Of a stretch of DNA of 64,000 nt, positions 26,399 through 43,751 are shown piece by piece. The notes under the pieces are model-generated. The model did not search any database. It saw only the letters and a list, made by a program, of their open reading frames with translations, and was not told the DNA's origin. Positions within the stretch are counted from its first letter, which is position 1. Each line of letters begins with the position of its first letter. This DNA comes from Desulfobulbus oligotrophicus (GTDB taxonomy: Bacteria; Desulfobacterota; Desulfobulbia; Desulfobulbales; Desulfobulbaceae), in assembly GCF_016446285.1 (NCBI RefSeq), contig NZ_CP054140.1:1035501-1099500 (forward strand), written 5' to 3'. The position numbers were made by a program, and so were the translations under genes.

Positions 26399-26403
26399 AG
26401 CTG

Positions 26404-27741
26404 ATGCAGCAGCAGGCATACTCAGTGCTGGTGATTGACGATGAGGAGTCCATCAGGCGTCTTTTGGAGAAAGAGTTGTCCAATGAGAGACGAGCGATCA
26501 CAACCGCCGCCGATGCTGTCTCGGCCTTAACGACGATGCGAAGTCATTGGTTTGATGTGATTCTTATGGATCTGCGCCTGCCGGATGTATCGGGCCTGGA
26601 CTTGCTGATTCAGACCCGGGAACTGGCTCCGCATACCGAAGTCATCATGGTGACCGGTCATGGTGATATCGATATTGCCGTAGAGGCCATGAAGCTTGGC
26701 GCCTATGATTTCATCCGCAAACCGTTTCATCTGGATCGGCTCGATCTGCTCGTTGAAAGGGCACATCACCGGGTACAGCTGGCTCGCGAAAACGATCGCT
26801 TGCGACATAATGCGGACAACAGTTTGCAGTCAGTGCGATTTATCGGCAACTCGCAGATTATCAGCGAAATTCAGTTTCTCATCAAGAAGGTCGCCCCGGC
26901 AAAAATTCCCGTGTTGATTACCGGAGAGTCCGGTGTTGGCAAAGATGTGGTGGCACGTGCTATTCATCAGGGTTCTCCCCTGTCTGTAAGCCCCATGGTG
27001 GTAAAAAACTGCGCCTCTTTGCAAAAGGAACTGGCGCGCAGCGAGTTGTTCGGGCATGTTAAAGGAGCGTTTACCGGTGCCGATGTGTCACAGGAGGGAC
27101 TGTTGTCCTTTGCGCACGGCAGTACGCTGTTTCTTGACGAAATCGGTGAGTTGCCCCTTGAGGTGCAGGCCTCGTTGCTCAGGGTCCTGGAAACCGGCAG
27201 TTATCGTCGGGTGGGGGAAAAAGAGGAACGAACCGTTGATATCCGGTTTGTTTTTGCCACGAACCGTCACCTGCAGGAAGAGGTGGAGCAGGGGCGTTTC
27301 AATGAGGCGTTGTTTCACCGGATCAACGCCTTTAATATTCATGTCCCTTCTCTCAGACGACGGAAGGAGGATATTCCGCTTCTGGTTGATTATTTTCTGG
27401 CAACCCTCGGGACCGACCAGATTCGTTATCGTGTGGTTGACAGTGCCATGGATTGTATCCTCAACTACAACTGGCCCGGCAATATCCGGGAGCTGCGCAA
27501 CGTGATCGAACGTTCCATCATTCTTGCGGAAAACGGTATGATCACTGAACGCTGTCTGCCGGGAGAGTTGATTGAATCGGCGGAGACCGAAGGGAGTGCT
27601 CTTTCCCTGGAGTCCATTGAAAAACAGCATATTCTCAAATTACTGAATGCCCATGGCGGCAACCGTCAAAAAACTGCGGAAGTTTTAGGAATCAGTCGTA
27701 AAACCCTGTACCGTAAACTGCAGCAGTATTCCATCAGTTAA
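26404..27741 (+). CDS. NtrC-family sigma-54-dependent response regulator
   Basis: A 445-residue activator. The receiver domain (1-120) has VIDDEES, the phospho-acceptor Asp in [10 protein letters not shown], and RKPFH. The AAA+ domain has Walker A GESGVGKD, the sigma-54-contacting GAFTGA loop in [12 protein letters not shown], and Walker [11 protein letters not shown]. The C-terminal Fis-type helix-turn-helix ([22 protein letters not shown]) binds DNA. It should act with the kinase upstream. Two perfect palindromes and a sigma-54 promoter immediately downstream make the next alcohol dehydrogenase gene its probable target. Confidence 0.96.
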
Positions 27742-27986: not shown

Positions 27987-28002
27987 TGGCATGGGAAGTG
28001 CT
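27987..28002 (+). promoter_or_regulatory. sigma-54 promoter
   Basis: TGGCATGGGAAGTGCT fits the -24/-12 consensus (TGGCAY-N5-TTGCW) at all key positions: GG and GC are correctly spaced and the last base is T. It lies 67 bp upstream of the ATG of the second Fe-alcohol dehydrogenase and downstream of the palindromic activator sites. Confidence 0.88.
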
Positions 28003-28068
28003 ACTGCATTAAGCGTATTGCATGCATGCAGAAGAGTTGAAAGTAACCATTTTTTGAAGGGGGATATC

Positions 28069-29162
28069 ATGGCGGTACGAGAGCAGGTATACGGATACTT
28101 TATTCCTAGCGTAACATTGATCGGTATCGGCGCAGCGAAACAGATTCCTGAGAAGATCAGAGCGATCGGCGGCACCAAACCATTGATTGTTACTGATAAG
28201 GGGATCACCAGTGCAGGAATAACCAAGCAAATCACTGATCTGCTTGATGATGCGAAGATGCAGTATGTGGTTTTTGATGAGACCATTCCAAACCCCACCG
28301 ATAAGAACGTGCACGACGGCGTTGACGTATACAAAAAGAATAACTGTGACAGCCTGATCACCCTGGGCGGCGGTTCTTCTCATGATTGTGGCAAAGGCGT
28401 CGGTCTGGTGATTGCCAACGGCGGCAAGATTCATGACTATGAGGGTGTTGATAAATCAACCAAACCCATGCCTCCGTATGTGGCGGTGAACACCACAGCC
28501 GGTACCGCCTCGGAGATGACTCGTTTCTGATGATGGGGATGCCGCCTGCGCTCACCGCAGCTACAGGCATGGATGCTTTAACCCATGCTGTGGAGGCCTA
28601 TGTATCCACCATTGCCACACCGATGACCGACTCTGCTGCGGAAAAAGCCATCGAGTTGATTGCCAAGCACCTGCGCCCCGCAGTAGCCAACGGCCAGGAC
28701 ATCGAGGCTCGGGAAGGGATGTGTTTTGCGCAGTATCTTGCAGGTATGGCCTTTAATAATGCAAGCCTTGGCCACGTGCACGCCATGGCGCATCAGTTGG
28801 GAGGCTTTTATGACCTGCCCCACGGTGAATGCAACGCTATTCTGCTGCCGCACGTTGAGCGCTTTAACCTGATAGCCAAGATGGACCGCTTCATTAAAAT
28901 CGCTGAGTTGATGGGAGAAAATACAGCTGGTCTTGCACCTCGAGATGCTGCTGAGTTGGCATTGGTGGCCATCAAGAAACTGTCGGCCGATATCGGCATC
29001 CCGGCTGGTCTGGTCGAACTTGGTAAGCGATATGGTAAAGAAGTGAAGGCCTCGGATATCGATACCATGGTCGCCAACGCCCAAAAGGATGCCTGCGGTC
29101 TGACCAACCCGCGCTGCCCGAAAGATGTGGATGTAAAGGCCATCTATACTGCAGCTCTGTAA
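28069..29162 (+). pseudogene. iron-containing alcohol dehydrogenase, disrupted by an internal deletion
   Basis: The first 153 codons (MAVREQVYGYFIPSVTLIGI through GTASEMTRF) and the last 210 codons (MMGMPPALTAATGMDALTHA to the stop) are excellent matches to the highly expressed DVU2405-type Fe-ADH. They are in different frames, and a TGA follows the Phe at 28525-28527. Against the paralogue at 24063, exactly 30 residues (the CIITD...DPL segment) are missing, leaving only two bases. This is an 88-bp loss that shifts the frame. Metal-ligand segments THAVEAY, MAHQLGG and LPHGECN survive downstream. It has a good ribosome site (GAAGGGGG) and an intact sigma-54 promoter. It is either a recent mutation or an assembly gap. 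Confidence 0.88.
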
Positions 29163-29460: not shown

Positions 29461-32178
29461 ATGATTAAACGGAAATTGCTTGTAAACGGTATCGAGCGGA
29501 CGGTGTTTGCAGAAGAGTCTGACCTGTTGTCTGATGTTATCAGAAAGAGTCTGCACCTCACCGGGACCAAAGTCGGCTGTGGCCAGGGACAGTGTGGTGC
29601 CTGTAACATCATCATGGACGGCAGGCTGATTCGTTCCTGTGTCACCAAGATGAGCCGGGTTCCAGAGGGAGCGGCTATCACCACCATAGAGGGGGTCGGC
29701 ACCCCTTCGGATCTGCATGCCCTGCAGCTGGCCTGGATGATCCATGGTGGTGCTCAGTGCGGTTTTTGTACCCCTGGTTTTATTGTTTCCGGCAAGGCCC
29801 TGCTGGATCAGAACCCTGACCCCTCCAGAGAGGACATTCGCGACTGGTTTCAAAGGTACCGCAACGCCTGTCGCTGTACCGGCTACAAGCAACTGGTGGA
29901 TTCAGTGCGAGACGCTGCCAAGGTGCTGCAGGGTAAAATAAGCATGCAGGATCTGGTGTACAAACTGCCGGCAGACGGTAAGGTCTTTGGTGGATCCATG
30001 CCTAGGCCGAGTGCGGTGGCCAAGGTCACCGGCACCTGGGATTTCGGTGCCGATGCTGCTCAGCGTTTGCCGGAGGGTACTTTGCAGCTCGCGCTTGTTC
30101 AGGCAGAGGTCTCCCATGCCAATATCCTTTCAGTAGACACCAGCGAAGCCGAAAAAATGCCCGGTGTCTTCAAGGTGGTGACGGCCAAGGATATCAAGGG
30201 GAAAAACCGGATTACAGGGCTCATCACTTTCCCGACCAATAAAGGTGATGGCTGGGACCGGCCTATTCTGTGTGATACCAAGGTGTTTCAGTTCGGTGAT
30301 GCCATTGCCATTGTCTGTGCCGATACCGAGAAGAATGCCAAGGCAGCTGCTGCAAAGGTCAAGGTCGAGCTGGAGGAGTTGCCGGCCTACATGAGCGCAC
30401 CGGCAGCCATGGAGCCCGATGCTATTGAAATTCACCCCGGAACCCCCAACGTGTACTTCATCCAGAAGATTGCCAAGGGAGAGGACACCAAGCCTGTTTT
30501 TGACAAGGCGGATGTGGTTGCTGAAGGCGATTATTATGTGGGCCGTCAGCCGCATATGCCCATTGAACCGGATGTCGGGTTTGCCTATCACAACGACGAG
30601 GGTAAGCTGGTTATTCACTCCAAATCCATCGGTCTGCATCTGCACCTCTACATGATCGCACCGGGGCTTGGGGTTGAGCCGGAAAACCTGATTCTGGTAC
30701 AGAACAACACCGGTGGTACCTTTGGCTACAAGTTCAGCCCCACCATGGAGGCCCTGGTCGGTGCGGCTGCCATGGCCACTGAGCGACCGGTTTACCTGTG
30801 TTACAACTACTTCCAGCAGCAGACCTATACCGGCAAGCGTTCACCGTTTTTTATGAATGTACGCATGGCGGCAAGCAAGGACGGCGCGCTGCTGGGTATG
30901 GAAACCGATTGGTCTGTGGATCATGGACCGTATTCAGAGTTTGGTGATCTGCTCACCCTGCGGGGGGCCCAGTTTATCGGTGCCGGTTACGATATAAAAA
31001 ACATCCGGGGCGAAGGACGCACCGTGTGCACCAACCACGCCTGGGGTTCGGCTTTCCGCGGTTATGGTTCACCACAGGCTGAATTTGCCTCTGAGGTACT
31101 GATGGATGAGCTGGCCGAGAAGTTGAATATGGATCCGCTTGAGTTGCGGTACAAGAACTGCTACCGGGAAGGAGCGACGACCCCGACAGGGCAGGATCCG
31201 GAGGTCTATTCTCTTCCTGAAATGCTTGATAAGTTACGTCCCAGGTACGAAGAGGCCAAAAAACGAGTCGCGGCTGAATCAACTGCAGAGGTAAAACGCG
31301 GTGTCGGTATCTCGCTGGGCGTGTACGGCGCAGGGCTTGACGGTCCGGACACCTCAGAGGCCTATGCAGAGCTGAATGCCGACGGCACTGTTACCATCTT
31401 TAACACCTGGGAAGATCATGGGCAGGGGGCTGATATGGGAACCCTGGCCACGGCTCACGAAGCACTGCGACCTTTGGGGATCGGTCCGGAAAAGATCAGA
31501 CTGGTATTAAACGATACCGAATTCTGTCCCAACTCAGGACCGGCAGGTGGTAGCCGCAGCCAGGTTATGACCGGGCAGGCGACCCGAATTGCCTGTGAAG
31601 AGCTGCTGAATGCCATGAGAAAGCCGAATGGATATTTTCGCAGTTACGATGAGATGATGGCTGACAAGATCCCGACCAAGGTTGTTGGCAAGTGGACCTC
31701 TCCTGGGACGGACTGTGATGAAAACGGACAGGGCAACCCCTTTAGTTGTTATATGTACGCTCTGTTCCAGGCTGAGGTGGCTGTAGAGGTTGCCACCGGT
31801 AAGACCACCGTGGAGAAGATGATCTGTGTTGCCGACGCCGGTAAAATTGCCAACAAACTGGTGGTGGATGGGCAGATTTATGGCGGTCTGGCCCAGGGGA
31901 TCGGGTTGGCGCTCACCGAGGACTTTGAAGATATCAAAAAACATTCAACACTCGCAGGTGCCGGCTTCCCGTACATCAAACAGATTCCCGATGATATGGA
32001 AATTATCTACGTGGAAACACCCAGGCCGGATGGTCCCTTCGGTGCATCAGGAAGTGGTGAGCTGCCCCTTACCTGCCCGCATGCCGCGGTTATAAACGCT
32101 ATCTACAATGCATGTGGTGCTCGTGTTCGTCATCTCCCGGCTCTTCCTGAAAAAGTGTTGGCCGCCATGCCCAAATAA
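29461..32178 (+). CDS. mop: molybdenum aldehyde oxidoreductase, Mop type
   Basis: A single-chain xanthine-oxidase-family enzyme that oxidises aldehydes to acids using molybdopterin cytosine dinucleotide and two [2Fe-2S] clusters. The 905 residues align end to end with the 907-residue D. gigas Mop. Cluster cysteines fall at 40, 45, 48, 60 and at 100, 103, 137, 139. The Mo domain has GGTFGYKFSPT, WGSAFRGYG, PNSGPAGGSRSQV and the catalytic Glu in GASGSGELPLT. No flavin domain. ATG 29461 follows GAGGAGG. Placed after the ADH genes and before its likely maturation cluster, it would take aldehyde produced by the ADH. Confidence 0.96.
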   Translation: MIKRKLLVNGIERTVFAEESDLLSDVIRKSLHLTGTKVGCGQGQCGACNIIMDGRLIRSCVTKMSRVPEGAAITTIEGVGTPSDLHALQLAWMIHGGAQCGFCTPGFIVSGKALLDQNPDPSREDIRDWFQRYRNACRCTGYKQLVDSVRDAAKVLQGKISMQDLVYKLPADGKVFGGSMPRPSAVAKVTGTWDFGADAAQRLPEGTLQLALVQAEVSHANILSVDTSEAEKMPGVFKVVTAKDIKGKNRITGLITFPTNKGDGWDRPILCDTKVFQFGDAIAIVCADTEKNAKAAAAKVKVELEELPAYMSAPAAMEPDAIEIHPGTPNVYFIQKIAKGEDTKPVFDKADVVAEGDYYVGRQPHMPIEPDVGFAYHNDEGKLVIHSKSIGLHLHLYMIAPGLGVEPENLILVQNNTGGTFGYKFSPTMEALVGAAAMATERPVYLCYNYFQQQTYTGKRSPFFMNVRMAASKDGALLGMETDWSVDHGPYSEFGDLLTLRGAQFIGAGYDIKNIRGEGRTVCTNHAWGSAFRGYGSPQAEFASEVLMDELAEKLNMDPLELRYKNCYREGATTPTGQDPEVYSLPEMLDKLRPRYEEAKKRVAAESTAEVKRGVGISLGVYGAGLDGPDTSEAYAELNADGTVTIFNTWEDHGQGADMGTLATAHEALRPLGIGPEKIRLVLNDTEFCPNSGPAGGSRSQVMTGQATRIACEELLNAMRKPNGYFRSYDEMMADKIPTKVVGKWTSPGTDCDENGQGNPFSCYMYALFQAEVAVEVATGKTTVEKMICVADAGKIANKLVVDGQIYGGLAQGIGLALTEDFEDIKKHSTLAGAGFPYIKQIPDDMEIIYVETPRPDGPFGASGSGELPLTCPHAAVINAIYNACGARVRHLPALPEKVLAAMPK

Positions 32179-32199
32179 GCGGCTTGGCACGTGTACCTG

Positions 32200-32226
32200 T
32201 CGGGGCGGAGAATGTGACCGCCCCGA
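32200..32226 (+). terminator. hairpin between mop and the accessory operon
   Basis: A perfect 9-bp stem TCGGGGCGG/CCGCCCCGA with a 9-nt loop, 22 bp after the mop stop. It lacks a T run, so it may slow RNase decay or lower expression of the downstream operon relative to mop rather than terminate fully. Confidence 0.5.
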
Positions 32227-32368
32227 TATACATGCAGTCTTTCAGCCTGTCTGGTATTTTGTTTGGAGAGGAGGAGTACAGCCCAACATCCTGATGGTGG
32301 TGAGCGTATCCCAACCATCCCCGATGACAAAAAACAGACAGGCTTTTTTTTAATGGACAATACTCACC

Positions 32369-34675
32369 ATGGATCAATCGCAACTCAGAGCACTTGAGGC
32401 CCGTTGTATTCAGGAAGAGATGCCGTTTTGTACGGCATCCTGCCCTATCCACGTTGATGCCCGTGGATTGATGGCATTGCTGACCAGAGGTGAACTGCGT
32501 GAGGCCAGAAAGATCCTCGATCGGACCATGCCTTTTCCGGAGATTCTCGGACGTATCTGCGATCAGCCCTGCCACCCTTTCTGCAAACGTGGTGAAATCG
32601 GCGATCCACTGTGGATCGGTCCATTGGAACGATACTGTGTCAGCGTTACCGACACTGTACTTAAGCCGCCGAAGCTACCTGTCAAGGGTGGTGCGGTAGC
32701 CGTACTTGGAGCCGGGTTTTCCGGCATGACGGCAGCACTTGACCTGAGCCGTAAAGGCCGACCGGCCACGTTAATCACCGCACGAACACGTCTTGGCGGC
32801 TCGCTGCCGGACCGGGCTGGTTCGCTGCTTCCTCCCGAGGTGTTTGATCAGGCGGAAGCCACCCTCAAAAGGTATGGAGCGGAGATTGTAACAGGTGCCT
32901 CGCTGGACAGGCAAACGGTCGCCGCTCTTCTTGATAAATACGATGTTCTCTATTTTGATTGGGATGATTTTACTATTGATCACCTGCCTTTTATCCCCGG
33001 CACGCCTGATCCGATCTCACTTGCCCTGGAGAGGGACGGCTGCTTTGGCGGCGGCGGTGTTGAAGACGGCAAACCTTTCTCCATCATGCATCAGGCGGAA
33101 AACGGCCGGCGGGCCGCTCTTTCCATGGAGCGTTACCTGCAGGGTGTGTCGTTAACTGCAGAACGTGAGAAGGAGGGGGCCTGTCCGACCCGGATGTATA
33201 CAGTGACCGAGGGTATTCCTCCTGCCTCTGAAATAGTGCCGGACAACCCGATTGCCGGTTACACCGCTGAGGAAGCCCAGCGGGAGGCGGCCCGCTGCAT
33301 CTACTGCGAGTGTCTGGAATGCGTTAAGAAGTGCGCTTATCTGCAGGAGTATAAGGAGTATCCCAAAACTCTGGTACGCAAAATCTATAACAATCTCTCC
33401 ATTGTCCAGGGAAACCGCAGTGCCAACAAGCTGACTAACTCATGCAGCCTCTGCTGGCAATGCACTGTTATCTGCCCCTATGATTTTCCGGTTGCCTCGG
33501 CCTGCCATGCCGCTCGTCAGGAGATGGTGGCAAGCGGTCATATGCCTCCCTCGGCTCATTCTTTTGCGCTGGAGGAGATGCACTATACCCTTGGCGAGAA
33601 CTGTGCACTGATCCGTCATCAGCCGGGTACAACCGCGAGCAGGTATCTTTTTTTCCCGGGCTGCCAGTTAACCGGAACCTATCCGGATACAGTGGAGCGG
33701 ACCTACATCTTTTTGACGCAGCACCTGGAAGAGGGGGTCGGGCTTTTTCTCAGCTGCTGCGGAGCGCCTGCCGATTGGGCAGGGCAGTCGGCTCTTTTTA
33801 CCGATGTCCTTGCTGACCTCACCGCGCAGATCAGGCAGATGGGCAATCCAACCCTGATTGTCGCCTGTTCCTCCTGTCTGGCCGCTTTTGGCAAATATGC
33901 CCCGGAGCTGACAGTGGTTTCCCTGTGGGAGATGCTTGACGAGCTGCCTTTACCGGAGGTGCTCTTTGATCTCCCTGAGTCGCCGTTAACAGTGCACGAC
34001 CCCTGCACTGCACGCTATCAGGAGGGGGTGCGGGCCAGCGTGCGGAGTATATGCGGCAAGATCGGACTTCCTGTTGCTGAAACGACAATCGGAGCTGAAT
34101 TAGCGGACTGCTGCGGGTATGGCGGGTTGCTGCAATTCGCCAACCAGCCGCTTGGCGAAAAAGTGGCGACGCTCAAGGTCAGTCGGTCCACAACAGAGAC
34201 AGGGCTTGTCTACTGTGCCATGTGTCGGGAAAATCTTGTGGGTACGGAGACGCATATCGCTCATCTCCTGGACTATCTGTTTGCAGATCCGGAGAAAAAT
34301 CCCCTTGTCCGCGCCAAGGTGGGGCTTTCAGGACGGCACGAACATCGTTCCCGGCTTAAATCCCGCCTGCAGAGCACATTATGGCAGGATCCGATCGGAT
34401 CACCGGCTCCACATCGGGCAATACGGCTGGAAGCGGATGATGAGACGTGGGCTCTTTTAAATGAACGGCTTATCCTGATGGAAGATATACAAAAGGTTAT
34501 CCATCATGCTGAAACAACAGGTCGTTATCTGCACAATCCGGCCAATGGGCGACGATTGGCAGCATTCAAGCCGGCTGTGGTCACCTACTGGGCCGAGTAT
34601 GAACCCATATCTGACGGCTATTTCCTGCACAGGGGATACAGCCACCGTATGCAGTTACCGGAGGACAGGGCATGA
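32369..34675 (+). CDS. pyridine nucleotide-disulfide oxidoreductase/dicluster-binding protein (DVU_1558 type)
   Basis: A 768-residue modular redox protein. It begins with a GltD-like Cys-rich region (CTASCPIH, CDQPCHPFCKRG; residues 20-75). An FAD/NAD Rossmann fold follows (AVAVLGAGFSGMTAALDLS, near 110-130). Then comes a ferredoxin-like dicluster (CIYCECLECVKKC and CSLCWQCTVICPYDF, about 310-370). Two HdrB/GlpC-like CCG units close it (FFPGCQ...LSCCGAPADW and HDPCTARYQ...DCCGYGGLLQFA). It could shuttle electrons between NAD(P)H, flavin and iron-sulfur partners. It heads an eight-gene chain; its stop overlaps the next gene by four bases. The electron donor and acceptor are unknown. Confidence 0.88.
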   Translation: MDQSQLRALEARCIQEEMPFCTASCPIHVDARGLMALLTRGELREARKILDRTMPFPEILGRICDQPCHPFCKRGEIGDPLWIGPLERYCVSVTDTVLKPPKLPVKGGAVAVLGAGFSGMTAALDLSRKGRPATLITARTRLGGSLPDRAGSLLPPEVFDQAEATLKRYGAEIVTGASLDRQTVAALLDKYDVLYFDWDDFTIDHLPFIPGTPDPISLALERDGCFGGGGVEDGKPFSIMHQAENGRRAALSMERYLQGVSLTAEREKEGACPTRMYTVTEGIPPASEIVPDNPIAGYTAEEAQREAARCIYCECLECVKKCAYLQEYKEYPKTLVRKIYNNLSIVQGNRSANKLTNSCSLCWQCTVICPYDFPVASACHAARQEMVASGHMPPSAHSFALEEMHYTLGENCALIRHQPGTTASRYLFFPGCQLTGTYPDTVERTYIFLTQHLEEGVGLFLSCCGAPADWAGQSALFTDVLADLTAQIRQMGNPTLIVACSSCLAAFGKYAPELTVVSLWEMLDELPLPEVLFDLPESPLTVHDPCTARYQEGVRASVRSICGKIGLPVAETTIGAELADCCGYGGLLQFANQPLGEKVATLKVSRSTTETGLVYCAMCRENLVGTETHIAHLLDYLFADPEKNPLVRAKVGLSGRHEHRSRLKSRLQSTLWQDPIGSPAPHRAIRLEADDETWALLNERLILMEDIQKVIHHAETTGRYLHNPANGRRLAAFKPAVVTYWAEYEPISDGYFLHRGYSHRMQLPEDRA

Positions 34676-34881
34676 GCACGTTTTCCTTTGCCGAGGCAAC
34701 AGAGTGGCGTTGTGCCGCCTGTGATCAACCGTTGCAGCCGGCCAAAGTCAAGGTCACCTATCTGAATGCGGTGTTCAATGTTGAGCTGATGGTCTGTCCG
34801 GCCTGTAATTTTATCCTTGTTCCGGAAAATCTTGCCATGGGTAAGATGCTGGAGGTTGAACAGCTCCTGGAAGACAAGTAA
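34672..34881 (+). CDS. rubredoxin-like small redox protein, DVU_1557 family
   Basis: A 69-residue protein with two CxxC knuckles, WRCAACDQPL and MVCPACNFIL, that would hold one iron or zinc atom in a rubredoxin-like site. A helical C-terminus follows (GKMLEVEQLLEDK). It matches the small redox protein regularly found with the aldehyde oxidoreductase accessory genes of Desulfovibrio. The start overlaps the dicluster gene's stop (ATGA) and the next gene begins 3 bp after its stop. It probably passes electrons within this cluster, which is an inference from size and position. Confidence 0.85.
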   Translation: MSTFSFAEATEWRCAACDQPLQPAKVKVTYLNAVFNVELMVCPACNFILVPENLAMGKMLEVEQLLEDK

Positions 34882-34884
34882 GCA

Positions 34885-35625
34885 ATGTGGGCCCATCGCG
34901 TTTCTGAAAAGAGGATCGTGCAACCCCTGTATGAACGGGAGGAGCTTGCCGCAATAACCGGTGGTCCGCTACGCCCCGGCGGGCTGGAGTTGACCGGAAA
35001 GCTGCTGCACCACAGCGGCCTGGCACCCGGTGCCACCGTCCTTGATCTGGGGTGCGGTTCCGGATTTTCCCTGGAACTGCTGATTCGGGTTTATCGTCTT
35101 GTCGCGGTTGGTATAGATCCTTCGCCTCTCCTGCTTGCTCAGGCCGGCCGAAGAGCGCCGCAGGCGACTCTTCTGCAGGCAACGGCACAGGCTCTGCCGT
35201 GTATTGACGGTTCGTTTGCAGGTGTTGTCTGTGAATGCGTGCTCTCTCTCACCGGTGATGTCCACCTGGTCATACGTGAAATGCACCGGGTGCTCCGATC
35301 TGGAGGCGTGTTGCTGCTCAGTGACGTCTATGCGCACGAAAAAGGGCGATTCTCAACATCTCCCCGGGCAACGAGCTGTGTCAACAGTACCGTAACCCTG
35401 GCCATGATGACGCAAGCTCTCAGGGCAGCGGATTTTGAGCTGCTCCATTTCTGGGAATGTACGGACATACTTAAACAGCTGGCCGGTCAGATTATCTTTG
35501 ATTACGGCAGCCTTGGTGCATTCTGGAATGTGATCCTGGGACAGGCGACCGGGCAATGCACACACGATTGCACACGTACAGGGGTAAAGCTCGGCTACTA
35601 TGCCCTTGTTGCACAGAAGAGGTAA
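34885..35625 (+). CDS. trsM: class I SAM methyltransferase, DVU_1556/TrsM family
   Basis: A 246-residue methyltransferase. The SAM-binding motif is VLDLGCGSGFSLELLIR, with GIDPSPLLLAQA as the acidic loop. The sequence LRSGGVLLLSDVYA is like arsenite or ubiquinone methyltransferases. The C-terminal third has cysteines in GQCTHDCTRTG, which is unusual for the fold. The substrate is not known. It is consistently a neighbour of the TrsS radical SAM protein, as here. The family name is given from memory and was not searched. Confidence 0.82.
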   Translation: MWAHRVSEKRIVQPLYEREELAAITGGPLRPGGLELTGKLLHHSGLAPGATVLDLGCGSGFSLELLIRVYRLVAVGIDPSPLLLAQAGRRAPQATLLQATAQALPCIDGSFAGVVCECVLSLTGDVHLVIREMHRVLRSGGVLLLSDVYAHEKGRFSTSPRATSCVNSTVTLAMMTQALRAADFELLHFWECTDILKQLAGQIIFDYGSLGAFWNVILGQATGQCTHDCTRTGVKLGYYALVAQKR

Positions 35626-35630
35626 ACGGT

Positions 35631-36086
35631 ATGGAAGAAGAGCTTCGTATTCTGCAGCTCGTTGGTGAAGGACTGTGCTGCAGTCAGATCATGGTCCGGC
35701 TGGCTCTGGATGATATGGGTGAGGAAAACGTCCCTCTGGTGCGTTCCATGGCCGGATTGTGCGAGGGAGCAGGCGAGGGTGGTCTGTGCGGCGTGGCGAG
35801 CGGTGCGGTATGTGTTCTGGCACTCTATGCCGCCAAAGGCAGCGTGACGGAAGAGATGCTGCCCTGTTATCCGATCCTTGTTGATCAGTTTATGGAGTGG
35901 TTCAAAGGAACATCCACAACATGGGGCGGCATACGCTGCGAGGACATTGTTGCCCATAACGGTGGTATACAGCCTCAGGTATGCGGCAACATCATGCTCC
36001 GTTCCCGGGAAATGATTATCCAGCTCCTTGCTGAAAATAATATCGACCCCAGCCAGCCCAAAGAACAGGCTGGAGGTTCTTTTTAA
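35631..36086 (+). CDS. C-GCAxxG-C-C family redox protein, DVU_1555 family
   Basis: A 151-residue protein of the C_GCAxxG_C_C family. The pattern shows as GLCCSQIM near residue 16, GGLCGVASGAVCVLALYA (the GCAxxG-like core), C in MLPCYPI, IRCED and QVCGN. Conserved cysteines suggest a metal or thiol redox site. Helical throughout, no signal peptide. ATG 35631 is the start adjoining the upstream gene; an earlier start at 35556 would overlap it by 70 bp. Function unknown; it belongs to the same transcript as TrsM and TrsS, with 5 bp on each side. Confidence 0.82.
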   Translation: MEEELRILQLVGEGLCCSQIMVRLALDDMGEENVPLVRSMAGLCEGAGEGGLCGVASGAVCVLALYAAKGSVTEEMLPCYPILVDQFMEWFKGTSTTWGGIRCEDIVAHNGGIQPQVCGNIMLRSREMIIQLLAENNIDPSQPKEQAGGSF

Positions 36087-36091
36087 ATCGC

Positions 36092-37477
36092 ATGGATGAT
36101 CTTGGCCATACCATAAGCCTCTGTCCGGTCTGCTGCCGTCGTATCACGGCATACCGGCAGCAGGAGCAGGAAACGGTTTTTCTGGTGAAAGAGTGTCCGG
36201 AACACGGACGGTTTCGTACACCGATCTGGCGGGGGGAACCGTCCTTTGCCGGTTGGCAGCGGTCTAAAATTCCATCGACCCTCCAGCACCCGCTCACCAC
36301 GGTTGAGCATGGGTGCCCTTTTGACTGTGGCCTCTGTCCCGCCCACGGGCAACACACCTGCACAGCACTGCTTGAGGTGACCAGCCGCTGTAACCTTGCC
36401 TGTCCGGTCTGCTTTGCCGATGCGGGTGCTGATCCTGCCCCGGATCTCTCACTTGCACAGATTGAGGCAATGTTCGAGACGGTTCTTGCTGCTTCAGGAG
36501 TCTGCAATATTCAGCTTTCCGGAGGCGAACCCACGGTGCGCGACGATCTGGCTGATATTATTCGATTGGGGAGGCGAAAGGGGTTCACCTTTATCCAGCT
36601 GAATACCAACGGCCTCAGATTGGCTGCTGATCCGACCTATGCTGCATCGTTGAAAGAGGCGGGACTGAGCTCCGTGTTCCTGCAGTTCGACGGTGTCTCC
36701 AGCCGCGCTCATCAGAGCCTGCGAGGGCGCGATTTGTGCGGGATAAAAGAGCGTGCCATAAACCACTGTGCTGTTGCCGGTCTTGGTGTTGTTCTGGTGG
36801 CCACCCTGGTGCCGGGGGTCAATACCGAGGAAATTTACGCTATCATCAGCTACGGTGTTTCGCAGGCACCAACGGTTCGTGGCGTCCACTTTCAGCCGAT
36901 CAGCTATTTTGGTCGTTATCCGCACGCCGGTCCGGCAGACAGCAAACGGATCACCCTGCCCGAGGTTATCCAGTGCATCGCCCGTCAAAGCGGCGGGATG
37001 ATTGATGCCCGTTATTTCGCGCCACCAGGGTGTGAGCATGCCCTGTGCTCGTTCCACGGCATGTTTCTGGTTGAAGAGAGTGGCCGGCTCACCTCGATCA
37101 ACAGCGGCTCATCCTGCTGCGACGGCAACCGCTCCGGCTTCCTGCCGACAGCCCGAGCCGGCCGGGAGCAGAGTGTGCGCACGACAGCCAGACAGTGGAG
37201 CCTGCCGATGGCCGCTGTCACCGCCAAGCAGGGCGCAGCTGCCGATGCAACCGTACAGGATGATTTTGACCGATTTCTTGCCCGTGCCCGCACCCATACC
37301 TTTTCCATTTCTGCCATGGCGTTTCAGGATGTATGGAATCTTGACCTGGAGCGACTCCGGGGCTGCTGCATCCATGTGGCAACGCCGGATAACCGGCTGA
37401 TCCCTTTTTGTGCCTATAACCTGACCTCAGCCTCGGGCCGGTCACTGTATCCGCGGAGGGTGGAAACATGCGGATAA
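36092..37477 (+). CDS. trsS: multi-cluster radical SAM protein, TrsS type (Cys form)
   Basis: A 461-residue radical SAM enzyme. The N-terminal CPVCC (Cys 11, 14, 15) with ECPEHG near 35-39 looks like a rubredoxin-type site. GCPFDCGLC (75, 79, 82) is an extra cluster motif, and SRCNLACPVCF (100, 104, 107) is the radical SAM CX3CX2C. QLSGGEPTVRDD is the SAM-binding GGE motif. C-terminal CEHALC and SCC offer further ligands. This order resembles the MJ0619/tetraether-synthase family. As I recall, relatives of this protein are often selenoproteins with Sec in the N-terminal motif, whereas here the codons are ordinary TGT/TGC. The substrate is unknown. Confidence 0.83.
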   Translation: MDDLGHTISLCPVCCRRITAYRQQEQETVFLVKECPEHGRFRTPIWRGEPSFAGWQRSKIPSTLQHPLTTVEHGCPFDCGLCPAHGQHTCTALLEVTSRCNLACPVCFADAGADPAPDLSLAQIEAMFETVLAASGVCNIQLSGGEPTVRDDLADIIRLGRRKGFTFIQLNTNGLRLAADPTYAASLKEAGLSSVFLQFDGVSSRAHQSLRGRDLCGIKERAINHCAVAGLGVVLVATLVPGVNTEEIYAIISYGVSQAPTVRGVHFQPISYFGRYPHAGPADSKRITLPEVIQCIARQSGGMIDARYFAPPGCEHALCSFHGMFLVEESGRLTSINSGSSCCDGNRSGFLPTARAGREQSVRTTARQWSLPMAAVTAKQGAAADATVQDDFDRFLARARTHTFSISAMAFQDVWNLDLERLRGCCIHVATPDNRLIPFCAYNLTSASGRSLYPRRVETCG

Positions 37478-38820
37478 CAACACTGGAAACCCTTCTCCAG
37501 CATGACATCGGCACTGCCGGCCGACCTCTTTCACGTGCCGCGATTGAATCCTATCAGGCGGAAGCTCTGTACCAACTGGTGGAGTACTGTCGGTTACGCT
37601 CACCTTTTTATCGCTCAAAGCTGGCCGAGTTCGACAATCAGACGATCAGCAGTCTGGATGGACTGTCGGCTCTGCCGCTGACAAGCGAGACCGAACTGCG
37701 TGAACAGGGGCACCATATGCTGTGCGTCAGTCAGGATGAGGTGGCCAGAATTATCTCACTTCCAAGCTCCGGTACAACGGGTGCGGCCAAACGCCTTTTT
37801 TTCACTGAGGACGACTTGGAGCGAACCCGCCTGTTTTTTCGTATCGGTATGGGTAATTTAGCAGAACCAGGGCAAAAGGCGGCCATTCTACTGCCTGGAG
37901 CGACTCCGGATTCCACGGGGTATCTCCTTGCCGGTGCCCTGCAGGCCATGGATGTGCGCAGCGAGATTCTTGGTCTGGTCAGCGACCCGGTTGCCGTGGC
38001 GAGACAGCTTGTTGCCGGAAGATTCGATGTGCTGATCGGTTTTCCCATACAGCTGCTGGCCGTGGCCCGTGTCGCCGAGGCCCGGAAGATGGAACTGCCG
38101 ATGATCCGTTCCGTGCTGCTCTGTTCCGACTATATCCCGAAGTCAGTCAGTACCGCCCTGGCAGCCTCCTTTGGTTGCGAGGTGTTCAGCCATTACGGCA
38201 CTGTGGAGAGTGGTCTGGGGGGAGCGGTTGATTGTGCCATGCACTGCGGGATGCATATCCGCGAAACCGATCTGCTGATCGAGGTCATTGATCCGAAGAC
38301 CGGTTATCCGCTGGCTGATGGCCGGTGGGGTGAAATTGTGCTGACAACCCTGCAACGACGGGCAATGCCGCTTGTGCGCTACCAGACCGGAGATCTTGGT
38401 CGGCTGCTCGTCGGCACCTGTCCCTGTGGCAGTACCATCCGCAGGCTTGACAAGGTGAAGGGAAGGATTTCCCTGCAGAGGAAGTTGCGCAGCGGGGCCT
38501 GGATCGATCTGCCGACCTTGGACGAAGTGCTCTTTGGTCTGCCCGGTTTGATCGATTTCAGTGCTGCCATCGATGAAAATGCAGGCCAGGACAGACTGTG
38601 CCTCACCTTACAGTGTCTGCCGGGTCATGAAGATGCAACCGTGGAGGCGGCCGGTCGGCTTCTTGCCGGACAACCGCAGCTGTGTGGGGTACACGTTCAG
38701 GTTGAGCATGATTCCGGATACCGGCGGCTGCATCAGGGAAAACGTCAACTATTTGATCAAAGGGAGTTTGTTTGTCATGAAACGGCTTGTTCGTCATCTC
38801 TGCTCAACCCTTGCCGATAA
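37468..38820 (+). CDS. PaaK-like AMP-dependent CoA ligase, DVU_1553 family
   Basis: A 450-residue adenylate-forming enzyme related to phenylacetate-CoA ligase. The P-loop is LPSSGTTGAAKRLFFT, then SHYGTVESGLGGAV, the adenylate-binding YQTGDLGRLL, and a small C-terminal lid. A CPCG knuckle follows the YQTGDLG motif, as in PaaK relatives. It would activate a carboxylic acid to an acyl-AMP or acyl-CoA, perhaps the product of the Mop enzyme, but this is a guess. The start overlaps trsS by 10 bp and the end overlaps xdhC by 44 bp, showing very tight packing. Confidence 0.83.
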   Translation: MRITTLETLLQHDIGTAGRPLSRAAIESYQAEALYQLVEYCRLRSPFYRSKLAEFDNQTISSLDGLSALPLTSETELREQGHHMLCVSQDEVARIISLPSSGTTGAAKRLFFTEDDLERTRLFFRIGMGNLAEPGQKAAILLPGATPDSTGYLLAGALQAMDVRSEILGLVSDPVAVARQLVAGRFDVLIGFPIQLLAVARVAEARKMELPMIRSVLLCSDYIPKSVSTALAASFGCEVFSHYGTVESGLGGAVDCAMHCGMHIRETDLLIEVIDPKTGYPLADGRWGEIVLTTLQRRAMPLVRYQTGDLGRLLVGTCPCGSTIRRLDKVKGRISLQRKLRSGAWIDLPTLDEVLFGLPGLIDFSAAIDENAGQDRLCLTLQCLPGHEDATVEAAGRLLAGQPQLCGVHVQVEHDSGYRRLHQGKRQLFDQREFVCHETACSSSLLNPCR

Positions 38821-39820
38821 CAGGTCCTGTGTGCTGGCGACCGTTGGGAGCCAGTCAGGATCCACGCCCAGAATTGCCGGTACAAAGATGATCGTCCATG
38901 AAGGTGGGAGTATCTTCGGAACCATCGGCGGGGGCCTCGTTGAAGCAACAGCTATCCGTGAAGCTGCTTCCTGTCTTCTTCAGAAAAAGAGCGCGCATAA
39001 ACGTTTTGATCTTTCGAATTCCGAGGCTGCGGTTTCTGATATGATCTGTGGCGGGACAATGGATCTGTATCTGGAGTATATTGCGCCTTCATCGGAAAAC
39101 ATGGCTGTTTTCCAGCAGCTGGAAAAAGAGCTCCATGCCGGTCGCAGGGTTATTTTAGTCAGCAGTATCAACGGGGAACAGCCTCGTTTTTTTGTTGACC
39201 ACAAGGGACGGGTGAATCGGGAAGATCTCCCGTCTGCTGTTGCTTCGCTTTGCAGGCAGACCGCCGCCATCCTGTCCGGAGCCGCCTGTGTTGACTGTGA
39301 AGGAGAACAGTATCTGCTCTCTTCCTTTGCAACCGGTGGTCATCTGGTGCTTGTCGGTGCCGGTCATGTTGCCGCCTGTACTGCTGAGGCTGCAGCCCGG
39401 GTTGGTTTTCAGGTAACAGTGATGGATGACCGGGAAGAGTTTGCCAATAAAGAGCGTTTTCCCCAGGCCACCACCATCCAACTCCTTTCAACCTTTGCCG
39501 GCTGTCTGGACGGTCTGGATATAGACAGCGACACCTATGTGGTTATCGTTACCCGCGGCCATCTGCATGATATGGAGGTGCTGGAACAGACGCTGCAGAC
39601 CAGGGCCGGGTACATCGGCATGATCGGGAGCCGTCGCAAGCGTAACACCATCTATACACAGCTTCTGGACAAGGGGGTCACCGAGGCCCAGTTGGGACAG
39701 GTACGCTGTCCCATCGGCATGGCTATAGAGGCCGACACTCCGGAGGAGATTGCGGTCTCCATTGTCGGTGAGCTGATCTACCAACGAGCCACCGGTCGAC
39801 GCGCATGGCACCTCGCTTAA
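38777..39820 (+). CDS. xdhC: XdhC-family aldehyde oxidoreductase maturation factor
   Basis: A 347-residue XdhC/CoxI protein that binds molybdenum cofactor, promotes its sulfuration and delivers it to the xanthine-oxidase-family apoenzyme. The N-terminal XdhC_CoxI domain has ATVGSQSGSTPRIAGTKMIV and GTIGGGLVEA. The C-terminal Rossmann domain has LVLVGAGHVAACTAEAAARVG, VVIVTRGHLHDMEVLE, and GMIGSRRKRN. ATG 38777 fits the family N-terminus, although the frame is open from 38561. It overlaps its neighbours on both sides. The client is almost certainly the Mop enzyme upstream. Confidence 0.92.
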   Translation: MKRLVRHLCSTLADNRSCVLATVGSQSGSTPRIAGTKMIVHEGGSIFGTIGGGLVEATAIREAASCLLQKKSAHKRFDLSNSEAAVSDMICGGTMDLYLEYIAPSSENMAVFQQLEKELHAGRRVILVSSINGEQPRFFVDHKGRVNREDLPSAVASLCRQTAAILSGAACVDCEGEQYLLSSFATGGHLVLVGAGHVAACTAEAAARVGFQVTVMDDREEFANKERFPQATTIQLLSTFAGCLDGLDIDSDTYVVIVTRGHLHDMEVLEQTLQTRAGYIGMIGSRRKRNTIYTQLLDKGVTEAQLGQVRCPIGMAIEADTPEEIAVSIVGELIYQRATGRRAWHLA

Positions 39821-40962
39821 GCGGACTCATCCTGGCGGCCGGTTTTTCGTCGCGCATGCAGGCACTTAAACCGCTTCTGCCGCTGGGTGAAACGTCGGTC
39901 TTGGGTCAGTGCATTGATACGCTTCGAAAGAGCGGTATCCAGGATATTATGGTGGTAGCCGGTTATCGGGGGAGCGAGGTCGCCGCCGAGGCGGTTGCCC
40001 ACGGTGCCCGGGCGGTATTGAATGCCGACTTTGCCGACGGGATGTTCAGCTCCATCCGTTGTGGCGCGCAGCAGCTGGGGGAGGCAGAGTATATTGCCCT
40101 GCTGCCGGTGGACATTCCGCTTATCCGCAGCGGTACTCTGTATCTCATGCAGCAGGCCCTGCAAGGTCGAACCGGTGTACAGGTTGTTCATCCGGAGTTT
40201 AACGATCAGCGCGGCCATCCTCTGCTCATTGCAACAGCACTGTTACGGGATCTGGTGCGTGCTGCCTCTGCTCCCGGCGGCTTGCGGCCCCTGCTGGAAC
40301 GTCACGAGCGCATGCAGCCTGAGCAGGTTGTGTCGGTGAAGGTCCCTGACGCCAACATCCTGTTTGACATGGACACACCGGAATCCTACGCTGCATGCTG
40401 CGAGCGTTTTCCCAGACGTGACTATCCCACCCTGGAAGAGGGTGCGGTTATCCTGGAGCATATTTATCCCATGCCGCCAAAAGGTGTTGCACATGGGCAT
40501 CTGGTGGGGGAGTTGGCTGCTGGTTTTGCAGAGGCAATCAACGTGTACAGAGATGCGGGGCTGTGTGTTGACCTCTGCCGAGTCGCGGGCTGGTTGCATG
40601 ATGTGGCCAAGGGGCAGGAACACCATGAAGAAACCGGCGGCAGATGGCTGGATGGCCTTGGTTTTCCACGGGCGGCATGCATTGTTGCCGCACATAAGGA
40701 CCTTGACTGGCATCCCGGTGACCCACTTACTGAACGTGAGCTGGTGCACCTTGCCGACAAGTTGGCCAAGGGGGGCAGGCTGGTTACCCTTGATCAGCGT
40801 TTTGGTGAAAAAAGTGCACTCTATAAAGATGATCCCGATGCCCAGGAGGCTGTTCAGAGTCGATACCTCCTGGCCCGGGAGCTGGCCCTGGCCCTGGAAG
40901 AGGCCAGTGGACAGACGTTTGTCACCCTGTGCGCTCATCTCGCATCCCGCTGTTCCCGCTGA
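39805..40962 (+). CDS. MocA-like molybdenum cofactor nucleotidyltransferase fused to an HD domain (DVU_1551 family)
   Basis: A 385-residue fusion. Residues 1-195 form a MobA/MocA-type NTP transferase: GLILAAGFSSRMQALKPLLPL, then LLPVDIPLI as the metal site and FNDQRGHPLL. It probably adds CMP to molybdopterin to make the MCD cofactor that Mop needs. Residues 205-385 are an HD phosphohydrolase domain with HGHLVGELA, GWLHDVAKGQEHHEETGG and AAHKDLD. The partnership may hydrolyse a nucleotide or control cofactor supply. The start overlaps xdhC by 16 bp. It is the last gene of the eight-gene chain. Confidence 0.87.
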   Translation: MAPRLSGLILAAGFSSRMQALKPLLPLGETSVLGQCIDTLRKSGIQDIMVVAGYRGSEVAAEAVAHGARAVLNADFADGMFSSIRCGAQQLGEAEYIALLPVDIPLIRSGTLYLMQQALQGRTGVQVVHPEFNDQRGHPLLIATALLRDLVRAASAPGGLRPLLERHERMQPEQVVSVKVPDANILFDMDTPESYAACCERFPRRDYPTLEEGAVILEHIYPMPPKGVAHGHLVGELAAGFAEAINVYRDAGLCVDLCRVAGWLHDVAKGQEHHEETGGRWLDGLGFPRAACIVAAHKDLDWHPGDPLTERELVHLADKLAKGGRLVTLDQRFGEKSALYKDDPDAQEAVQSRYLLARELALALEEASGQTFVTLCAHLASRCSR

Positions 40963-42686: not shown

Positions 42687-43751
42687 ATGCATTTTCCATC
42701 TGTCAAACTGACAAGTACTGTTAAAGCTGCAGGTTGAGCTGCCAAGCTCGGTCCAGGGGACCTGGACCAGATATTGAGAGGCCTCAACCTGCCGTCTGAC
42801 GCCGATTTGCTTGTAGGTGCGGAAACCTGCGATGATGCCGGTGTGTACCGTCTCACCGATGATATCGCCCTGATTCAGACCGTGGATTTTTTCACCCCGA
42901 TTGTTGATGATCCGTACGATTTCGGCAGGATCGCGGCGGCAAACTCCCTGTCTGATGTATATGCCATGGGCGGACGCCCCTTACTGTGCATGAACATTTT
43001 AGCGTGCCCAGTCAAAACAATGGACCCGGCAACTGTTCGCCGCGTTGTGGAAGGCGGCCTGGACAAGATCCGTGAGGCCGGTGCACTTCTGGTCGGCGGA
43101 CATTCCATTGAGGACCAGGAATTAAAATATGGGCTGGCTGTAACCGGAATTGTTCATCCACAGCGTCTGCTACGCAACAGCGGCGCGCAGGTCGGTGATG
43201 TTTTGCTGCTGACCAAACCTCTGGGTACCGGTATCCTGTCAACAGCGATCAAGGGCGGCCTTACCGCCCCGGCGGCTGAACAGCAGCTGGTTGAACTGCT
43301 GGCAACGCTGAATCGGATGCCCCTGGAGATCCTGGACGAGAACCCGGAGCTGCGCGATCAGGTGCATGGCTGCACGGATATCACCGGGTTCGGACTTTTC
43401 GGCCATCTGCATGAGCTGGCAGAGGCATCGGCGGTTTCGTTACATATTGATAAGCGTCTGCTGCCTCTTCTGCCGGATGTTGTACCCTTTGTTGATATGG
43501 GCATCATCCCTGAAGGAGCGTACCGTAATAGAGACTTTTATCGCCAATGGGTTCATTCCGAGCTGGCGGAAATGGATTCGGTGGAGATGGTCGGTTATGA
43601 TCCGCAGACCTCTGGTGGACTTGTCTTGGCCATGACACCCGATGCAGCTGTTCAGCTGCATCGCCTCCTGCAGCAACGGGGATATGATCCGGCATGTCAG
43701 GTGATTGGCGAGGTCTGTGCCGCTGATCCCGGTATGGTGCATATCCGTTAG
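42687..43751 (+). CDS. selD: selenide, water dikinase, a selenocysteine-containing SelD
   Basis: It makes selenophosphate from selenide and ATP for Sec-tRNA and other selenium uses. Read with the TGA at 42735-42737 as selenocysteine, the protein is 354 residues. It starts MHFPSVKLTSTVKAAG-U-AAKL, placing Sec at position 17, where E. coli SelD has catalytic Cys17. Downstream are TVDFFTPIVDDPYDFGRIAA, GGHSIEDQELKYGLAVTG, TDITGFGLFGHL and DPQTSGGLVLA. An in-frame TGA at 42675 blocks any earlier start. No good Shine-Dalgarno precedes ATG 42687. The SECIS hairpin follows the TGA. Confidence 0.95.
42735..42768 (+). promoter_or_regulatory. selenocysteine codon and bacterial SECIS hairpin in selD
   Basis: The UGA at 42735-42737 is followed after 12 nt by a perfect 7-bp stem, GGTCCAG (42750-42756) with CTGGACC (42762-42768), closing the loop GGGAC. 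Distance and size fit a bacterial SECIS element read by SelB, and the loop contains the expected guanines. Confidence 0.85.

Follow-up and report, generated by a model that had tools for sequence, protein, structure and literature searches.

The aldehyde oxidoreductase Mop of Desulfovibrio gigas provided the first crystal structure of the xanthine oxidase family. It has been solved at 1.28 Å with a well-defined pterin and an ordinary molybdopterin cytosine dinucleotide (MCD) cofactor; its active form does without a sulfido ligand, and the enzyme gives electrons in vitro to flavodoxin, a partner still called 'putative' in the available part of that work (PMC10223205). The genes adjoining mop are not discussed in the available parts of two D. 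gigas Mop papers. This neighbourhood is already catalogued in NCBIfam as the DVU_1551–DVU_1559 families of Desulfovibrio vulgaris, under names that give six of the genes no pathway, and no functional study of the block was found in the literature searched (DVU tags, TrsS, DUF7479, NF numbers). We analysed the corresponding block in a window of 64,000 nucleotides (nt) from Desulfobulbus oligotrophicus (contig positions 1035501–1099500; genome assembled as a single 3.10-Mb contig), where it spans positions 29461–40962. Tentatively, we propose that the block includes a module making a dedicated redox group or carrier for an electron chain between Mop and a heterodisulfide reductase (Hdr)-like flavoprotein, with a small protein of the DVU_1557 family as the probable carrier.

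Gene block and co-occurrence of its members

The nine genes are all on the + strand, and each of their products exceeds its curated NCBIfam cut-off, which bears out the family assignments of a first-pass annotation of the window. The first gene, mop (29461–32178; NF045668, 1701 bits, cut-off 1100), encodes a D. gigas-type aldehyde oxidoreductase with two [2Fe-2S] domains, MCD-binding domains and no flavin adenine dinucleotide (FAD) domain (Pfam Fer2, Fer2_2, Ald_Xan_dh_C and MoCoBD_1/2). This protein matches its family and the structures 1DGJ and 1SIJ over the full length, and is the one Mop match in the genome at E ≤ 0.001. It is followed by a dicluster flavoprotein (32369–34675; NF045663, 953 bits, cut-off 530), a rubredoxin-like four-Cys protein of 69 amino acids (aa) from the DVU_1557 family (34672–34881; NF045645, 102 bits, cut-off 60), a DVU_1556-family class I methyltransferase (34885–35625; NF045667, 222 bits, cut-off 155) and a DVU_1555-family C-GCAxxG-C-C protein (35631–36086; NF045669, 148 bits, cut-off 103). 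Next come TrsS, a radical S-adenosylmethionine (SAM) protein resembling tetraether lipid synthase (Tes) (36092–37480; NF045646, 685 bits, cut-off 490), and a PaaK-like adenylate-forming ligase of the DVU_1553 family (37468–38820; NF045666, 430 bits, cut-off 300). The last two products are an XdhC-family aldehyde oxidoreductase maturation factor (38777–39820, start uncertain; NF045664, 407 bits, cut-off 350) and MocA-HD, a fusion of molybdenum cofactor nucleotidyltransferase and HD domains (39805–40962; NF045665, 399 bits, cut-off 315; Pfam NTP_transf_3 and HD).

A gap of 190 nt separates mop from the flavoprotein gene. The eight genes behind mop are co-directional and, as the first-pass annotation had stated, tightly packed, with successive gaps of −4, 3, 2, 5, −13, −50 and −16 nt; these values used slightly earlier starts for the C-GCAxxG-C-C and XdhC genes, and the ATG starts listed above change two of them, to 5 and −44 nt. 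The order of the block is far from chance, since the same order is found at loci of Thermodesulfobacteriota, Bacillota, Chloroflexota, Synergistota, Acidobacteriota, Pseudomonadota and Spirochaetota.

Eight of the nine family models, all but that of XdhC, were run against 198 genomes of the phylum. TrsS exceeded its cut-off in 19 genomes and was split between two frames in one more (G039), giving 20. The ligase was over its cut-off in exactly these 20 genomes, and the methyltransferase reached at least 143 bits in exactly the same set, with 18 over the cut-off of 155 and the next genome at 106 bits. Within the 20, mop was found in 14 genomes (13 over the cut-off and one copy cut by a contig end), and it was in exactly these 14 that the full-length flavoprotein and the DVU_1557 protein exceeded their cut-offs. 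The C-GCAxxG-C-C protein was over its cut-off in 16 of the 20 TrsS genomes, and MocA-HD in 11 of the 14 mop genomes and in five genomes that have no mop over its cut-off.

Six genomes (G039, G075, G108, G125, G131 and G152) thus carry the core without mop, and the module is therefore not dedicated to Mop only. The flavoprotein of these genomes is short or split, and its C-terminal domain of about 95 aa is encoded as a separate gene. The domain is likewise a separate gene in four mop-less loci of named genomes (L103, L107, L114 and L130), which makes ten mop-less loci with this arrangement. Neighbours at mop-less loci include proteins resembling 2-hydroxyglutaryl-CoA dehydratase, the BcrAD ATPase, NuoF (in L103), MaoC and RACo, together with B12-binding proteins. 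A neighbour of DsrK/HmcF/TmcB type in L034 scores 326 bits against the DsrK cut-off of 400. According to the first-pass annotation, wide occurrence of the unexplained genes without mop would refute a common pathway; this was found in part, in 6 of the 20 TrsS genomes.

Named genomes were scanned with TrsS as the query, and the best 80 of 568 confirmed stretches were taken. These loci contain TrsS by design; the mop searches of the phylum and of the D. gigas family were independent of TrsS. Locus counts use the 48 of the 80 in which TrsS has enough flank (8 kb on its upstream side, 5 kb on its downstream side). Forty-one of the 48 contained mop, and all six genes without an assigned pathway (those from the flavoprotein to the ligase) were present in 41 of these 41 loci, with the DVU_1557 gene missing from none. 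Seven loci were scored mop-less (L078, L083, L103, L107, L114, L128 and L130), one of which, L083, has a piece of mop under the threshold at the edge of the stretch. Other genes were optional at the mop loci: XdhC was found in 28 of 41, MocA-HD in 31 of 41 and a tenth gene resembling alpha-ribazole phosphatase in 27 of 41. The single pathway suggested by the first-pass annotation therefore holds for mop plus the six unexplained genes and less for XdhC and MocA-HD. A tighter tie of these two to mop had been expected, but the dependence runs in the opposite direction, and the genes of known job are those that can drop out of the locus.

The linkage was also followed in a sample of 119 genomes from the family of D. 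gigas, taken to be Desulfovibrionaceae. A match to the N-terminal part of Mop was found in 74 genomes and a TrsS match in 71, with 70 in common. Two of the four apparently mop-only genomes (G293 and G304) proved to contain TrsS on reading, so that 72 of the 74 mop genomes have TrsS. The remaining two are 84% complete (G224) and 54% complete with divergent mop-like genes (G247). TrsS occurs without a mop match in a single genome (G198). Sequence distances of mop correlated with those of its six partners (Spearman 0.25–0.50; label shuffles at most 0.15–0.19), as they did with those of XdhC (0.45; shuffles ≤ 0.37) and MocA-HD (0.38; shuffles ≤ 0.19), which may be taken as a modest sign of common history. 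The block suggests that the real partners of Mop are the six genes kept beside it in several phyla, including those of acetogens and of Desulfovibrio piger.

Predicted functions of the six partner proteins

The flavoprotein consists of an N-terminal GltD-like iron-sulfur/FAD part, a 4Fe-4S dicluster, two complete CCG motifs and the C-terminal domain of about 95 aa (Pfam Fer4_20, Fer4_17 and CCG). Both C-CCG-CxxC motifs that mark HdrB/HdrD-like proteins are present, and their cysteines (C432/C463/C464/C500/C503 and C546/C581/C582/C616/C619) are invariant in 85 aligned sequences, as are the dicluster cysteines. CCG enzymes of the Hdr type act on thiols or quinones. From the gene linkage, we infer that Mop and the flavoprotein exchange electrons.

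The four cysteines of the DVU_1557 protein are conserved in 99–100% of mop-type sequences, and Lys is the last residue in all 93 of them (Lys69 in the window), these sequences being one per locus and chosen by profile, so that a locus with a lost tail could be missed. The tails read LEDK (87), LEEK (3), MEDK (2) and VEDK (1). For comparison, the commonest last residue in eight other families at the same loci accounted for 42% in mop and for no more than about 21% in the others, with open reading frames cut by contig ends kept in this control. In mop-less loci Lys was last in 7 of 10 sequences and third from the end in 3 of 10. Eight further copies were read from a control and from genomes whose TrsS loci are solo, tandem or partial; seven of them end in EDK and one in EAK. 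They represent eight loci read of 13 DVU_1557 matches, and the control copy (L162) repeats a sequence already counted (L074). The genome of L131, one of eight searched, gave no DVU_1557 match. A Shine–Dalgarno constraint was considered as the cause of the EDK ending and rejected: the codons vary (E67, GAA 36 and GAG 57; K69, AAA 50 and AAG 43; n = 93), and it is therefore the protein sequence that is conserved. In the AlphaFold2 model, residues of the core (about 11–50) have a predicted local distance difference test score (pLDDT) of 77–81 and those of the tail 51–57. A search of plasmids for DVU_1557 gave no match.

A 2026 review that cites Haft & Tolstoy 2025 counts TrsS among the radical SAM selenoprotein families (PMC13188914). 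The window encodes a form without selenocysteine (Sec), and Sec in TrsS or the C-GCAxxG-C-C protein was rejected for the loci scanned, as tblastn alignments gave no in-frame stop at a conserved Cys. The closest solved relative of TrsS is the tetraether lipid synthase 7TOL (Mj0619; E 9.1e-87). Its metal ligands were compared in an alignment of 132 sequences, 120 TrsS and 12 Tes-like, after two short TrsS sequences (L037 and one L108 piece) had been dropped. The 101 sequences called type I are all those not otherwise classed; 15 of their loci show no mop, and 14 of these belong to the 32 loci whose flanks were too short. From the N-terminus, TrsS has a rubredoxin-like site (C11, C14, C35 and H38), an N-cluster site (C75, C79, C82 and H85), the radical SAM cysteines (CX3CX2C; C100, C104 and C107) and a C-cluster site, and M409 is the counterpart of the labile Met439 of Tes, whose auxiliary ligands and labile Met have been described (PMC9433317). 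Each metal-ligand position matched to Tes is kept in 99–101 of the 101 type I sequences. C319, C425 and C440 are also conserved and probably hold the C-terminal cluster.

Other positions set TrsS apart. The counterpart of Tes Tyr459 is Tyr in 0 of 120 TrsS sequences and in 8 of 12 Tes-like ones; among the 101 type I sequences it is V (65), I (12), E (9), C (4), S (3), T (2), A (2), Q (2) or a gap (2). His266 is present in 114 of 114 type I, type II and solo sequences and in 0 of 12 Tes-like ones, and Cys90 in 120 of 120 TrsS and 4 of 12 Tes-like sequences. The position of the labile Met is itself divided among the Tes-like sequences, with Met in six and His in six. A quick tree placed TrsS apart from the Tes-like sequences (support 99) and type I with solo sequences in one group (98), with a program warning of long branches among the Tes-like sequences. 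Tes bonds a substrate carbon to a cluster sulfur (PMC9433317), and by analogy TrsS may perform a similar carbon-sulfur chemistry.

The ligase has conserved adenylation-type motifs and resembles PaaK (4R1L, E 7.5e-30), and it misses the cut-off for PaaK phenylacetate-CoA ligase (TIGR02155, 112.8 vs 646 bits). Twenty-five ligase sequences are shorter than 400 aa. Two (L117 and L068) were set aside as cut by breaks or contig ends, and because 23 of 103 are under 400 aa with no contig end as the cause, the label 'CoA ligase' is unsafe; most others have about 435–450 aa. In the methyltransferase, for which the next family is arsenite methyltransferase (NF008823), G56, G58, G60 and Cys118 are conserved in 98–99% of non-type-II sequences. 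The C-GCAxxG-C-C protein belongs to PF09719 (62.4, gathering score 27) and keeps Cys18, Cys54, Cys104 and Cys119 (numbered from 35628) in 98–100% of sequences; its putative iron-sulfur role is likely in view of the model described below.

A proposed redox group or carrier, and competing explanations

The gene content, the co-occurrence (41 of 41 loci, 72 of 74 genomes), the CCG motifs, the Tes-type ligands, the conserved tail of low model confidence and the occurrence of the block in D. gigas together suggest an aldehyde-oxidising chain with its own biosynthetic module. Mop, which has no flavin domain, would hand its electrons to the Hdr-like iron-sulfur flavoprotein, and the ligase, TrsS, the methyltransferase, the C-GCAxxG-C-C protein and the DVU_1557 protein would make the redox group or carrier of this chain. 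From these observations we infer a substrate, an order of steps and a kind of group as follows. The ligase would adenylate an organic acid for transfer to DVU_1557 or another acceptor. TrsS would act by radical chemistry on an unactivated carbon, with the help of a Tes-type C-terminal cluster able to bind the substrate carbon through sulfur, and the methyltransferase would add a methyl group. The Hdr-type CCG sites of the flavoprotein would then oxidise or reduce the finished group, and XdhC and MocA-HD would do no more than supply Mop with MCD. The first-pass annotation had offered three options, namely an unknown modification of the molybdenum enzyme or its cofactor, synthesis of a small redox carrier, and processing of the acid product through a CoA ester. 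The second is the best supported, with the substrate, the order of steps and the group as its conjectural parts.

Several observations weigh against this proposal. The pairing of mop with a long flavoprotein holds strictly among the 198 genomes but not everywhere, as the mop-less loci L107 and L114 carry a long flavoprotein (582 bits in L114, cut-off 530). In four genomes (those of L138, L140, L141 and L143), which have a Trs-linked mop elsewhere, an additional Mop-like gene lies with a sigma-54 regulator and an alcohol-dehydrogenase-like gene but has no adjoining Trs genes. The reduction of flavodoxin by Mop indicates that a special carrier is not strictly needed in D. gigas. The DVU_1557 model is weak (mean pLDDT 67.9), 57 of the 93 genes have a Shine–Dalgarno-like GAGGA or GGAGG within their last 12 nt, and the conservation of the tail could reflect a docking peptide instead. 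Finally, the correlations of mop with partner distances are modest in size, and the main text of a D. vulgaris transposon-fitness paper mentions no DVU155x gene.

Some of these points recur in an explanation that we consider unlikely, yet worth keeping in sight: the DVU_1557 protein would be an electron-transfer protein only, its tail docking to the flavoprotein or TrsS, and the module would make a free quinone-like or thiol carrier. Four conserved cysteines fit a metal-bound redox protein, the tail is of low confidence when modelled alone, other CCG proteins are generally known to act on thiols or quinones, and L034 has its DsrK-like neighbour. Against it, so strict a placement of Lys at the very end (93 of 93 sequences) is unusual when the maximum in other families is 42%. 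That residue is central to the most specific form of the carrier proposal, in which DVU_1557 would be a prosthetic-group carrier with a redox arm built in place on Lys69, following a logic like that of lipoate. The ligase would load the acid on Lys69, TrsS would functionalise the chain, perhaps leaving sulfur behind for lack of the Tyr that Tes conserves, and the methyltransferase would trim the arm; the flavoprotein would cycle it, taking electrons from Mop. Mop-less cores would make the same arm for other enzymes. In this detail the proposal is distinctly unlikely.

Maturation of Mop itself, in which TrsS and its partners would modify the enzyme or its MCD or aid insertion, would account for the strict linkage of mop with the Trs genes and for the presence of true molybdenum cofactor genes, XdhC and MocA-HD, in the same operon. 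The D. gigas genome was recognised among the sampled genomes by a Mop that matches the first 206 residues of 1SIJ at 100% (G212). Its locus has the usual order of mop, flavoprotein, DVU_1557, methyltransferase, C-GCAxxG-C-C protein, TrsS, ligase, XdhC and phosphatase, with no MocA-HD label in the stretch read. Because D. gigas has the block and yet has a Mop with ordinary MCD, a covalent modification of Mop is disfavoured; the available part of the 1.28 Å report mentions no other change (PMC10223205). Going by the published description, a stable change made by the block in Mop or MCD would probably have shown in that structure. Together with the 6 of 20 TrsS genomes that lack mop, this led us to reject maturation as the main view, and we regard it as quite improbable. 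The first of the three options fares accordingly.

In a further alternative, the C-terminus of DVU_1557 would itself become the redox cofactor, in the manner of the ribosomally synthesised and post-translationally modified peptides (RiPPs) that give pyrroloquinoline quinone (PQQ) and mycofactocin. A small protein with a conserved C-terminus is indeed encoded near a radical SAM enzyme that has sites for auxiliary clusters, and PQQ and mycofactocin maturases are weak matches of TrsS. However, the matches of the nine block proteins include no peptidase and no precursor-binding domain (RiPP recognition element, RRE), and the four-Cys core of DVU_1557 is conserved as well, which makes a RiPP-like route very improbable.

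Catabolism is the remaining option of the first-pass annotation: Mop would make an acid, the ligase its CoA ester, and the module would take further steps. The PaaK-like ligase and the genes resembling 2-hydroxyglutaryl-CoA dehydratase, BcrAD and MaoC at some mop-less loci are in line with it. The distribution of the ligase, however, matches that of TrsS and the methyltransferase also in genomes that lack mop, 23 of 103 ligase sequences are the short ones noted above, no beta-oxidation gene is found among the nine window genes, and SAM-consuming steps are ill-suited to such a route, which we disfavour as highly improbable. Equally doubtful is lipid work, in which TrsS, like Tes, would couple or alter the alkyl chains of membrane lipids and a lipid-derived aldehyde would be handled by Mop: TrsS is closely related to Tes and has the same metal sites, but it never has Tyr at the Tyr459 position, and it misses the Tes cut-off (NF045702, 349.9 vs 450 bits), and no lipid gene is found among the nine.

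Neighbouring genes, unusual loci and likeness to known systems

Upstream of the block, a sensor kinase and an AtoC/NtrC-like sigma-54 response regulator (25205–27741, +) are putative regulators; such pairs are also labelled near the block in L053, L149 and L151. An iron-containing alcohol dehydrogenase gene (27991–29162, +) lies between this pair and mop and is split: the N-terminal part stops near 28530 and the C-terminal part is in another frame, as in a pseudogene or an assembly error. Labels of similar genes occur near the block in L052, L081, L149 and L151. Downstream, MocA-HD is followed in the window by purF on the − strand. In many relatives the phosphatase-like tenth gene stands there (L053:14861–15460, L040:6835–7428 and others), with scores of 159.9 and 166.2 bits around the alpha-ribazole phosphatase cut-off of 162.9; it may act on the nucleotide of a cofactor. 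In selD (42687–43751, +), TGA stands in frame at the position usual for the active site (42735–42737), and the organism therefore probably decodes Sec. No selD label was seen in 100 neighbourhoods of relatives.

Several loci depart from the common plan. Solo TrsS genes (L078, L084, L087 and L088) were considered as a separate system, which was rejected, as flavoprotein and DVU_1557 genes are found elsewhere in all four genomes; they look like rearrangements. The solo TrsS of Clostridium ragsdalei (L078) adjoins a CobW-related gene and ModD. In L084 (9968–12142) TrsS carries a fused stretch with a sub-cut-off match to the MbdU family of metal-binding selenoproteins, and genes that read as cobalt-transport-like lie nearby. 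Tandem TrsS or Tes-like pairs occur in L111, L131, L158 and L047, and the second copies of the first three form a branch of their own. Two mop-less loci (L035:2010–2723 and L036:11468–12184) encode a membrane-like protein of 238 aa between DVU_1557 and the methyltransferase, and the L035 protein has no Pfam or NCBIfam match.

Within the literature searched, the split in co-occurrence, the mop-less cores, the argument from D. gigas, the ligand comparison and the C-terminal lysine are new, and Haft & Tolstoy 2025 may anticipate parts. If the module does make a new redox group, TrsS would have a function, carrier proteins would gain a further type, and the destination of the electrons from Mop would be accounted for.

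Compared with the D. vulgaris neighbourhood, the window has the same nine families, all over cut-off, and differs in its Sec-free TrsS and in having no phosphatase gene after MocA-HD. With D. gigas (Mop 1VLB/1SIJ) it shares the single-chain enzyme and the adjoining gene block, MocA-HD excepted. The LysW and ArgW carriers, in which a C-terminal Glu holds the intermediate, share with DVU_1557 a small size, four cysteines and a conserved C-terminal residue (PMC10433800), on a plan of a folded core resembling a zinc ribbon with that residue at its end. The tails differ, LEDK, LEEK, MEDK or VEDK as opposed to the EDWGE of LysW, and none of the nine block proteins matches an ATP-grasp ligase. Kinship was also sought by a profile search of the PDB and rejected: no LysW-named entry appeared up to E 10, and the best matches, zinc fingers and MasE (E 0.014), were all weak. 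The likeness, an analogy, is thus one of plan only, without detected sequence kinship.

The model of the C-GCAxxG-C-C protein (AlphaFold2, pLDDT 92.8) resembles the fold of the iron-centre domain of split-Soret cytochrome c (1H21) over 131 aligned residues at 15% identity, with a Z score of 9.9 and the next at 4.2 (VIA), although helical models may reach a Z of about 13 by common arrangement. The profile match to 1H21 is weak (E 0.0042 for the whole, 0.11 for the stretch), and Foldseek on its own found no match at E ≤ 0.001. Unlike the cytochrome, the protein has no haem domain, and it is possibly an iron-sulfur protein with a fold like that of the split-Soret iron centre. TrsS has the domain order, radical SAM motif, named auxiliary ligands and labile Met of Tes (GDGT-MAS), but differs in the missing Tyr459 counterpart, the presence of His266 and its separate clade. 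Similarly, the flavoprotein shares the dicluster and two complete CCG motifs with Hdr, DsrK and LdhH, from which it is distinguished by its fusion to a GltD-like FAD part and to the conserved C-terminal domain of about 95 aa.

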